From assembly GCF_008932115.1 (NCBI RefSeq), contig NZ_CP044543.1:1984001-2048000 (forward strand): a DNA stretch of 64,000 nucleotides, written 5' to 3'. This stretch comes from Bradyrhizobium betae. GTDB lineage: Bacteria > Pseudomonadota > Alphaproteobacteria > Rhizobiales > Xanthobacteraceae. The notes below the pieces were generated by a model. That model worked only from the letters and a program-made list of their open reading frames with translations. It did not search any database and was not told the DNA's origin. A program made the translations under genes and the position numbers. Numbering within the stretch: the first letter of the stretch is position 1; the number at the start of each line of letters is the position of its first letter. Of the stretch, positions 16,831-36,342 are shown one piece after another.

Positions 16831-16906
16831 GGCCCGGTGGCGGAAGCGTCTACGCGAGAGCAGTGCATCGCTCTTCATCCTGGTTCAAATCCAGGCCGGG
16901 TCTCCA
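16831..16906 (+). tRNA. tRNA-like gene, degenerate tRNA-Cys candidate
   Basis: A 76-nt cloverleaf-like sequence. The acceptor stem GGCCCGG (16831-16837) pairs fully with CCGGGTC (16896-16902), followed by discriminator T and encoded CCA. The T arm is canonical (CCTGG-TTCAAAT-CCAGG). The other arms are abnormal: the D stem has three pairs and its loop lacks the conserved GG, and the anticodon stem AGAGC/GCTCT closes an 8-nt loop (AGTGCATC). T-GCA in that loop and the U73 discriminator suggest cysteine identity, but the geometry is non-standard. It could be a tRNA pseudogene or a tRNA-like RNA. An inverted repeat starts inside its CCA end. Confidence 0.45.
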
Positions 16907-33239: not shown

Positions 33240-33480
33240 TTGAACCTCGTGGATCAGACCAATCGCCGCAGCCAATCCGTCAGCGAACGGTTCCTGCGCC
33301 TGATGATTGAGAGCGGCATCGTTCGCAGCATGAGCCGATCCGGCAATGTGTGGGACAACGCGGCGATGGAGAGCTTCTTCTCGTCGTCGAAGACCGAGCG
33401 CAAGACCTGTCGCGCCAGGTGACGGAAGCTCGGCCCGACAGATCGAGGAGCACCGTCATCGCAATTTGCTAACCTCCGGG
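33240..33480 (+). pseudogene. IS3-family transposase (orfB) remnant
   Basis: A 60-codon fragment keeps the C-terminal catalytic region of IS3-type transposases: SERFLRLMIESGIVRSMSRS and GNVWDNAAMESFFSS (the third catalytic Glu), then SKTER. The upstream Asp region reads DQTNRRSQSVSE where DRGSQYxSE is expected, and a stop follows KTERKTCRAR, so it is broken at both ends. The remaining bases to about 33480 show no intact frame. It marks past mobility at the left edge of the accessory block. Confidence 0.8.
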
Positions 33481-33507: not shown

Positions 33508-34182
33508 TTATTGAACACGCTGGCCCGCGCGCCAGGCCATCTCCCAGAAGTCTGTCTCGAGCCGGGTGGCTTCCTTGAAGATCGCAATCAGTTCTGCCTC
33601 GCGGGCCGGCGTGGCGTAGCGATCGGCGAGATGCTCCATGTGCGCTAGCGCCTTGGCCGCGACCTCTTGATATGGCGCGCCGGCATATTCGCCGATCCAG
33701 ACGCGATAGGCGTTCGTCGCGGCGTCCGCATGGGGACGCGCGGCGAGCCGCGTCGCGATCTCCGCATAGCCGATCACGCAAGGCGCCAGCGCCACCTTGA
33801 GCGCCAGCAGATCGCCGCGCATGCCGGCGTCGAGCACGTAGCGCGTATAGGCCAGCATCTCGGCCGCCGGCGGGGCCTGTTCAAGATCGGCCGGGGACAG
33901 ACCCCAATCGGCACAGAGTTTGACATGCAGGTTCATCTCGACATCGAGGATGGCCGATAGGCCGGCGGATGCTTCACGCATGTCGGCAAGCCGAGGCGAC
34001 TTGTAGACCGCGAGCGCGTAGGCGCGCGCAAACTCGATGAGGAACAGGTAGTCCTGAACGAGGTAGTGACGGAACGCCGCTTCGGGGAGCGAGCCGTCCG
34101 CCAATCCGTTGGTGAAGGGATGCTCGGTGTAGGCCCGCCACTCACCGGATGCTGCTGTCTTAAGACGCTCGAAGAAGGTCAC
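33508..34182 (-). CDS. tenA: TenA-family thiaminase II / aminopyrimidine aminohydrolase
   Basis: A 224-residue helical TenA protein, which hydrolyses thiamine or salvages the amino-pyrimidine from thiamine breakdown. The nucleophile Cys is in VALAPCVIGYAEI, the catalytic Glu near the C-terminus is in LETDFWEMAWR, and the N-terminal FRHYLVQDYLFLIEFARAYALAV block is characteristic. No TPP riboswitch was recognised upstream, and no other thiamine gene is nearby. It stands between the IS3 remnant and the low-GC pair on the other strand. Confidence 0.9.
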   Translation of the reverse strand: MTFFERLKTAASGEWRAYTEHPFTNGLADGSLPEAAFRHYLVQDYLFLIEFARAYALAVYKSPRLADMREASAGLSAILDVEMNLHVKLCADWGLSPADLEQAPPAAEMLAYTRYVLDAGMRGDLLALKVALAPCVIGYAEIATRLAARPHADAATNAYRVWIGEYAGAPYQEVAAKALAHMEHLADRYATPAREAELIAIFKEATRLETDFWEMAWRAGQRVQ

Positions 34183-34384: not shown

Positions 34385-35272
34385 ATGACCGTTGGAATGG
34401 CGCGTCGATTTGGCGATCGCATGCTTATCGCTACGGATACAATGATCCACGATGAAGCAACAGCAAAGCGCAACCTGATTCCTGGGAGAGTAAAGGCTAT
34501 TGTCCTCTGTGAGGATGTTTCGGTCGCCTATGCAGGGACGGTGGGATACGCGCTCCCCGCCATCCAGGAAGCCGCTGCAATTGCGCGTGGCGGCCGTCGC
34601 ATCGAAGACGTGATCAGACCATTGAGAAACGCCTGCGCTGAGAGTGCAGCCAGGGGTGAAAAATTTCAGACAGAGTTTCTCGTGGCATCGCACCGCAGCA
34701 GAGCCACTATGTTCAAGATTTGGAAAGACGGATTGATCACTGAGAACAATGATCGTCTATGGATAGGGCAGCCTGACGTTGTTACCGCAATTGAGAGCAT
34801 TGAGGCTGAGACGCCAACGGGCCTCGCGCATAGCACCACCATCCCATTCATGCCCCCTGAAGAGCACCGCTTCACCTCCGCCATCAACCAAATTGCGACG
34901 CAGCCGGCACGTTTCTTGAGTAGCAGTGTGGGAGGATTTATGATCACGGTCCTAGCGTCGCCGTTCGGACACACCTATCAACATATAGTAGGGGCCACGA
35001 TGCTCCAGGACATCGAGTTCGATAAAGCCAGAGGCGAAGAACAGCATGCCGAACAGCAAACCGGAATAAATTATTACACCTACCAAATCCTAGCGAATTT
35101 TTGGAGAGGTGCAGCAGTCGTTGCAGCATATCTCGAGCAACCGAGACTTGGCTTTCTATATCGTCCACTCGAATGGGACGGCGTTGAGACGTTCAGAGAA
35201 ACGACTGCTGAAGAGCTTTTAGGCCGTGTCCGTGAAGTGGCAACTGCGATGGGGGCCGTTGAACGGATTTAG
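34385..35272 (+). CDS. Putative proteasome-like Ntn hydrolase
   Basis: A 295-residue protein resembling the proteasome beta/HslV fold at its start. Met is followed directly by Thr (MTVGMARRFGDRMLIATDTM), so Met removal would expose an N-terminal Thr nucleophile; the Asp in IATDT is then residue 17 of the mature chain, as in proteasome subunits. GRVKAIVLCEDVSVAYAGTVG matches the Lys33 strand and following Gly-rich turn of HslV-like proteins, with a loop three residues longer. The C-terminal ~110 residues are an extension of unknown nature. A strong GGGAGG site precedes ATG. GC is visibly lower than in neighbours, suggesting transfer. No ATPase partner is seen. Catalytic activity is inferred. 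Confidence 0.62.
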   Translation: MTVGMARRFGDRMLIATDTMIHDEATAKRNLIPGRVKAIVLCEDVSVAYAGTVGYALPAIQEAAAIARGGRRIEDVIRPLRNACAESAARGEKFQTEFLVASHRSRATMFKIWKDGLITENNDRLWIGQPDVVTAIESIEAETPTGLAHSTTIPFMPPEEHRFTSAINQIATQPARFLSSSVGGFMITVLASPFGHTYQHIVGATMLQDIEFDKARGEEQHAEQQTGINYYTYQILANFWRGAAVVAAYLEQPRLGFLYRPLEWDGVETFRETTAEELLGRVREVATAMGAVERI

Positions 35273-35329
35273 AACCACAGTGACCAATCAAGCACTGACA
35301 CCGTAATCACGACTCAAACATAAGGCAGT

Positions 35330-36163
35330 ATGCAAAAGCCGCCGGCCGTTTTCGATCATCTCGGTCCGTACGCGCAGCCTCCGGCTGTCGCCGAATGCTA
35401 CCGCATGAATGAGCGCTTGTGGCTGAAATATCTAGAGTTGGCTGGCGACTACGAGCACGAGGATAACCAAAGCCGCGAATTCCAGATTGTTCGCATGCTC
35501 CATATTGCCGAGATCACGAGTAGCGCAGTCCGACTAAACGCGAGCTGGGGTCTGACACCCGCCGCTATGTCACTACTCCGCGATCGGTACGAGCAAACTG
35601 TGCGTTTTTCTTGGCTGGTCAGGAACCCGGACCCGCTCGCGTTTCAGAAATACGACCGCACCAAATTCGCCAAGATGGGTGATCTGGCGAAGGCCGCGAA
35701 GCCGGAGACCCGAGCGGATTTCGAGAAGCTATACGGACCTCTGCCTGCTTGGGCGACCGAACCGCTCACAAAGGAGCAGCGCACGTTTTTTCAAGAATGG
35801 TCCACCCTCGATCTTCGCTCAACGGCAAAGAAGCGCGACGAGCTTCCTCCGCTTTCCGACTTGCACATCGCTAAGGAGAAGCTGGCACCGTCATACGACG
35901 CCATCTATGCGCAGTTCAGTTCCGTCGCACATTACGATCGGTTTAGCCTAGAGTTCATGCAAGTGAACAAGTCGCCGGACGGTAGTCGGCATCTAGGCGC
36001 GCAACCTCATTGGCCGCGCATGCTCATCCTGCAGAACGCTCACTTCGACATTATTCAATGCTATGAAGCCGCACACATTTGCTACCAACGCGATGCTTCA
36101 CTGATATTCAATTCTTTCTTCTTTGAGTGGAACCAGCTGGCAAAGGAGATCGTGCCGCCATGA
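35330..36163 (+). CDS. Hypothetical helical protein, DUF5677-like
   Basis: A 277-residue, largely helical protein with no signal peptide. The pattern RMLHIAEITSSAVRLNASWG ... LLRDRYEQTVRFSWLVRNPDP and a later YAQFSSVAHYDRFSLEF resembles DUF5677-type proteins, which are of unknown function and are often found in accessory regions. It lies 57 bp after the Ntn-hydrolase-like gene on the same strand and shares its lower GC, so the two form a probable operon. The family assignment is by pattern only and needs a profile search. Confidence 0.6.
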   Translation: MQKPPAVFDHLGPYAQPPAVAECYRMNERLWLKYLELAGDYEHEDNQSREFQIVRMLHIAEITSSAVRLNASWGLTPAAMSLLRDRYEQTVRFSWLVRNPDPLAFQKYDRTKFAKMGDLAKAAKPETRADFEKLYGPLPAWATEPLTKEQRTFFQEWSTLDLRSTAKKRDELPPLSDLHIAKEKLAPSYDAIYAQFSSVAHYDRFSLEFMQVNKSPDGSRHLGAQPHWPRMLILQNAHFDIIQCYEAAHICYQRDASLIFNSFFFEWNQLAKEIVPP

Positions 36164-36265: not shown

Positions 36266-36342
36266 TGGTACAGTTGGGTGGGCTCGAACCACCGACCTCC
36301 TGTTCCACAGACAGGCGCTCTAACCAACTGAGCTACAACTGC
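36266..36342 (-). tRNA. tRNA-His (GTG)
   Basis: A complete 77-nt tRNA on the minus strand with encoded CCA (36266-36268). The anticodon arm CCTGT-CTGTGGA-ACAGG gives GTG (His). The D loop has GTTGG, and the T arm is GGTGG-TTCGAGC-CCACC. The acceptor GCAGTTG pairs with CAACTGT as G1-U72, the discriminator is A73, and there is no paired extra G before position 1, the form described for alphaproteobacterial tRNA-His. Confidence 0.95.

Follow-up and report, generated by a model that had tools for sequence, protein, structure and literature searches.

A lone gene of predicted proteasome fold at a tRNA-His integration hot spot of Bradyrhizobium betae

Orphan proteasome homologues and the predicted fold of ORF1

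Fuchs, Alva and Lupas (2021) distinguished 22 groups of orphan proteasome-like proteins, a family defined by the beta-type core fold, the triad Thr1/Ser1, Asp17 and Lys33, and Gly47 (PMC8665760, cited throughout from the accessible part of its text). According to that part, the 22 groups have no co-occurring AAA+ partner and their genomic context carries no hint of function. One lone proteasome-like fold, that of connectase, acts as a ligase (PMC8665760). For BPH, the accessible part of a separate study reports no known unfoldase and no activity shown in vitro, yet binding of epoxomicin (PMC5777263).

The window analysed here is a stretch of 64,000 nucleotides of Bradyrhizobium betae DNA. Within it, ORF1 (34385..35272, plus strand) encodes a protein of 295 aa (P0001). 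An initial annotation of this DNA had proposed a proteasome-like Ntn hydrolase from Met1-Thr2, Asp18 in the motif IATDT, Lys37 in GRVKAIV and a long C-terminal extension. All four features are present, and the class is borne out by a structure model and fold search, which predict a proteasome-type, beta-type core fold. Conservation of the three catalytic positions, which the annotation had set as a check, was observed in an alignment (A4) of 37 rows, from which P0011, P0040 and P0041 were excluded for short or odd ends. Residue 2 (codon 34388..34390, plus strand like those that follow), the candidate nucleophile after removal of Met1, is Thr in 33 and Ser in 2 of the 35 rows having the position, which is missing in P0038 and P0039. 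Asp18 (34436..34438) and Lys37 (34493..34495), equivalent to proteasome Asp17 and Lys33, are each found in 36/36 rows, P0039 again being the row with gaps. All 37 rows have Gly51 (34535..34537), the equivalent of the oxyanion-hole residue Gly47, and all 37 have His103 (34691..34693), a family-invariant residue. ORF1 is a real gene under purifying selection, with dN/dS values of 0.14 and 0.18 between the window copy and two copies from B. liaoningense. A purine-rich stretch seen by eye 5' of its ATG could be a ribosome-binding site.

The C-terminal extension (residues 208-295; 35006..35269, plus strand) lies outside most structural matches and is predicted to form strands and one helix at 275-288. 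Modelled alone, it reached a pLDDT of 73.3 and a pTM of 0.60, and Foldseek found no fold match for it with E <= 0.001. A likeness to the polo-box domain was discarded (best Foldseek E 0.17, TM 0.22, no match), and no new fold is claimed. The relatives P0017, P0018 and P0019 (375-380 aa) carry about 80 further C-terminal residues.

Among PDB sequences, the best profile match of ORF1 was HslV, a weak match with E 0.0027 over residues 1-137. P0001 matched no Pfam family at E <= 1, and the Pfam Proteasome family (PF00227) was matched by one of the 37 A4 members (E 0.01), which is not P0001; across the same 37 members Pfam, NCBIfam and PHROGs yielded no convincing match. Alignment by hhalign of the family profile with the HslV sequence of the same genome failed to link them. 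Because of this failure, and since PF00227 recognised 1/37 members only, the homology of ORF1 rests mainly on predicted structure. HslV does not appear among the 50 fold matches listed for ORF1, a result that carries no weight. In BFVD, 15 viral-protein folds matched with E <= 0.001, and two of these first 15 matches are named HslV peptidase subunit or proteasome beta type-2; the ORF1-type fold therefore occurs in phages.

The earlier statement that such a protein fits no nameable system was too strong, as proteasome-like homologues that stand alone, with no ATPase partner, had already been described (PMC8665760). Like those orphans (RPC, DPH, PPH, AAH and others), ORF1 is lone and propeptide-free, has the catalytic triad and comes with no AAA+ partner, as far as the accessible descriptions go. 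With HslV (ClpQ) it shares the fold class, the Met-Thr start and the Asp17/Lys33/Gly47-type residues, but its 295 aa compare with about 174 aa for the HslV core of its own genome and include the C-terminal extension. Furthermore, no hslU was seen beside ORF1 when the ORF lists were read, and the genome has a separate HslV gene. In BPH, Ser may replace the Thr nucleophile, as in the two Ser rows of the ORF1 family; BPH is a double-ring tetradecamer (PMC5777263), whereas ORF1 is known here from sequence and model. PPH differs in being about 140 residues long and phage-linked, and Anbu, which assembles as a split ring, in having a long C-terminal helix H5, in contrast to the predicted strands and single helix of the ORF1 extension (PMC8665760).

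ORF1 may be a new branch of this known proteasome-like kind. That its family already bears a name, DPH or that of another group of Fuchs et al. (2021), is possible but in our estimate the less probable situation, and would be a question of label leaving the mechanism unaffected. RPC and DPH are restricted to proteobacteria, and the C-terminal extension of ORF1 beyond its core has a counterpart in RPC (PMC8665760); in addition, the distant relative P0042, described below, may connect the ORF1 family to a further branch. Against this identification, the ORF1 model has two helices after strand S4, at 53-68 and 73-89, which were assigned by order to H1 and H2, and H2 is missing in RPC (PMC8665760). 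Assignment to RPC itself was rejected on this feature of the predicted model. The numbers also differ: ten relatives of ORF1 carry an NCBI source label, in a search of limited reach, against 37 DPH and 79 RPC sequences counted in 2020 (PMC8665760).

The same helices bear on a second reading, in which ORF1 works as a specific protein ligase of the connectase type, or as some other amide-transfer enzyme, and not as a protease. Connectase, also a lone proteasome-like enzyme, supplies the precedent, and the C-terminal element and the invariant His103 are specific to the ORF1 family. Connectase is devoid of H1/H2 and has a two-helix insertion between S3 and S4 (PMC8665760); the ORF1 model is the opposite on both counts, with both helices and no long S3/S4 insertion, and we consider a ligase improbable.

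The tRNA-His site and the gene next to ORF1

Downstream of ORF1 lies a tRNA-His gene (GTG; 36266..36342, minus strand), which had been called a common integration site. The comparison with relatives agrees: 41-63-bp second copies of its 3' end (window 36266-36313) were found in at least 7 of 25 genus genomes (as a minimum set G001, G004, G010, G017, G018, G019 and G023), at a distance of up to about 227 kb in G017. Longer second copies occur in G012 and G014, and the neighbours of the tRNA gene vary among relatives. As such copies are what attachment sites leave, they mark a genus-wide integration hot spot. In the genome of the window, a 20-bp piece of the tRNA 3' end occurs once, with no second copy within 2 mismatches, and an att duplication was dismissed for this genome. 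ARAGORN also reported a tRNA with a four-base anticodon at window 16831-16906; it is probably no gene, because Rfam finds nothing there.

On the other side, the resident neighbour of the site is TenA (33508..34182, minus strand; PF03070, E 9e-51). Beyond it, tblastn revealed a fragment of an IS3-type transposase (33240..33422, plus strand), about 70% identical to copies on plasmids; of the five copies shown, two are annotated as IS3 transposase. The fragment matches no Pfam family at E 0.001. The two ORFs had been placed between an IS3 remnant and tRNA-His. Both elements were found, but a complete TenA gene separates the fragment from ORF1. The lower GC content noted for the two ORFs was recovered, with values of 0.534 for ORF1 and 0.553 for ORF2 against 0.649 for TenA, 0.664 for the phasin gene and 0.641 for the window; among 623 sampled windows as long as the pair, just one had a GC content as low.

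Of 16 stretches around this site in relatives, fifteen were read (L052 excluded), as an uncontrolled sample of its cargo. In G021, 523 bp separate TenA from tRNA-His and no ORF >= 90 aa is listed in this interval, which corresponds to an empty site. A 541-aa integrase directly adjoins tRNA-His at two of the 15 sites (G011, by Pfam; G002, by eye), and the G009 site (L054:9570-13893) carries the PADLOC candidate defence genes PDC-M30A/B and Hydrolase-TM. In G008 (L053:12592-14064), two ORFs stand between TenA and tRNA-His, neither matching Pfam or PADLOC; a CHAT/caspase-like appearance of the 206-aa one, seen by eye, was dropped for this reason. In B. liaoningense SZCCT0400, a DUF4411/PIN gene and an XRE-M78 gene with RmrA/CapP-like PADLOC matches (L005:12859-14561) lie beside tRNA-His.

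ORF2 (35330..36163, plus strand; 277 aa, P0002) begins 57 bp after ORF1. Its description as a DUF5677-like protein stands in a weakened form: PF18928 is matched with 22.0 bits and E 1.9e-4, below the cut-off of 27.1. PADLOC profile PDC-S52 is matched with E 4.7e-4 over part of its length. The initial annotation had joined ORF1 and ORF2 into a two-gene module in one transcript. Searches for ORF2 returned its own genome only, that is 1 of 265 genus genomes and 1 of 297 order genomes, and no match in viral contigs, plasmids or phages. The gene is absent from 63 other loci, including two in B. liaoningense (L004 and L005) where ORF1 copies of 87% and 86% identity sit at the same tRNA-His. The module is therefore refuted, by the co-occurrence test that the annotation itself had set, as ORF2 is confined to its own genome and absent beside both close ORF1 copies. 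A common transcript found no support: promoter and terminator scans gave signals no better than shuffled sequence, and the DNA shared with L004 and L005 ends at window 35308 and 35272, 5' of the ORF2 start. Where ORF2 would stand, L004 carries an integrase cut down to its first 204 residues (74% identical to the 541-aa integrase of G011; PF00589, E 3.2e-7), and L005 has a DDE transposase together with its DUF4411/PIN and XRE-M78 genes. A genuine module newly formed in this B. betae strain would account for the common strand, the short gap and the low GC of both genes; we hold it to be most improbable, given that ORF2 is missing at the other loci and in the other genus and order genomes searched and that the ORF1 homology block stops upstream of it. 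The pair looks like a module by eye and is in fact an accident of the hot spot, ORF2 being a neighbour in that hot spot and no conserved partner.

Distribution and genomic company of ORF1

Protein searches of a database of 5.8 billion sequences, with one sequence and then with two alignments, listed 8, 19 and 31 proteins, only the best ~8,000 candidates being scored in the second and third. The named sources of the relatives include Bradyrhizobium, Mesorhizobium, Rhizobium fabae, Labrys and a Caulobacter MAG. Within genomes the distribution is patchy. Counting its own genome, ORF1 was matched in 4 of 265 genus genomes and in 4 of 397 order genomes, where one copy has an in-frame TAG and one match spans 90 positions. 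At the class level, 3/385 genomes matched, namely its own and two weak ones (L018, and L017, which reads as an HslV gene). Another family of the same order gave one match in 229 genomes, the contig-end protein P0042 (L068:7-411, G1062), which hhalign aligned to the ORF1 family with 97.2% probability over 131 columns. P0042 retains Met-Thr and the Asp, but Asn replaces Gly51 and His103 has no equivalent; this more distant relative may belong to a further, larger branch. Each of five ORF1 carriers checked has one separate PF00227 gene, and that of the B. betae genome reads as HslV.

P0001 had no match among 72,556 plasmid or 50,697 phage records, nor in viral contigs, and P0030 and P0034 had none in the plasmid records. 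A pattern for a divergent ORF1 branch gave 101 matches in viral contigs, with no relative among them. Carriage of ORF1 by phages or plasmids was rejected on these searches.

The neighbours of ORF1 change from locus to locus. In L006, a PIN gene and a MazE-type antitoxin gene start about 0.1 kb from the ORF1 homologue. In L007, a DUF4160/DUF2442 pair, which we take to be of toxin-antitoxin type, lies at about the same distance (~0.1 kb). In L019, the homologue adjoins a Fic gene and a gene resembling an RHH antitoxin (below its cut-off), with tRNA-Ala on the other side and a ThsB-TIR gene about 5.5 kb away. L020 has a phage-integrase-type gene (below its cut-off) and, by eye, a transposase-like ORF. 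A reading of the locus ORF lists showed no AAA+ unfoldase or hslU-like ORF beside ORF1. A ParA-like ATPase ORF about 3 kb upstream in L004 and L005 was set aside as a partner, as it is also found near the site in relatives without ORF1.

In total, a toxin-antitoxin-type pair starts within about 2 kb of the ORF1 homologue at 4 of 7 loci (L005, L006, L007 and L019; not the window, L004 or L020), L007 counting only on the putative toxin-antitoxin character of its DUF4160/DUF2442 pair and the control covering PIN genes only. PIN matches number 5 in G000, 8 in G026, 1 in G115, 2 in G046 and 1 in G302, so that chance neighbours should be rare, in a small sample where PIN alone was counted. This company, the PADLOC candidates at the G009 tRNA-His site and the patchy distribution would suit an anti-phage or toxin-antitoxin-like effector, a Thr protease that when triggered cuts one host or phage protein, the neighbours being fellow cargo. 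Such an effector seems to us rather unlikely: ORF1 and P0030 are without PADLOC match, ORF1 has no fixed partner, the control rate is made of PIN counts only, and many unrelated genes ride in hot spots.

Proposed activity and role of ORF1

The reading that we favour, and think somewhat better than an even bet, is that ORF1 encodes a threonine peptidase that is accessory, acts independently of an ATPase and travels as cargo of hot spots in Alphaproteobacteria. ORF1 would be a lone, propeptide-free proteasome-like Ntn hydrolase. Once methionine aminopeptidase has cleaved off Met1, Thr2 would stand at the N-terminus and, together with Asp18, Lys37 and the Gly51 oxyanion hole, attack a peptide (or other amide) bond; neither HslU nor any other dedicated ATPase would be needed. 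The extra C-terminal part probably imposes a quaternary state other than that of HslV or aids substrate binding. The gene itself would be interchangeable cargo of hot spots rich in tRNA and toxin-antitoxin genes in Alphaproteobacteria. From its architecture and genomic company, we infer a role most likely in stress or in conflict between host and mobile elements, rather than in housekeeping proteolysis.

A more specific version, which we put forward as a long shot, sees in ORF1 a proteasome beta-type fold recruited as the protein-cutting component of a mobile stress or defence gene, directed at a single target protein and working with no propeptide, dedicated ATPase or fixed partner. Specificity or gating would then come from His103 and the C-terminal element, and the gene would be spread by tRNA-targeting integrases and toxin-antitoxin hot spots. 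To our knowledge, no proteasome-family defence protease is known; searches of the accessible literature for proteasome-like or N-terminal-nucleophile defence enzymes listed none that fits. If this version were true, ORF1 would be the first.

For the proteasome-like family, ORF1 adds a rare, well-conserved branch unseen by the Pfam proteasome model and NCBIfam. Its toxin-antitoxin and integrase neighbours provide a functional lead of a kind that genomic context did not give for the 22 groups of Fuchs et al. (2021), going by the accessible text (PMC8665760). Lying in mobile hot spots, ORF1 offers a testable case for the function of orphan proteasome homologues that have no unfoldase.
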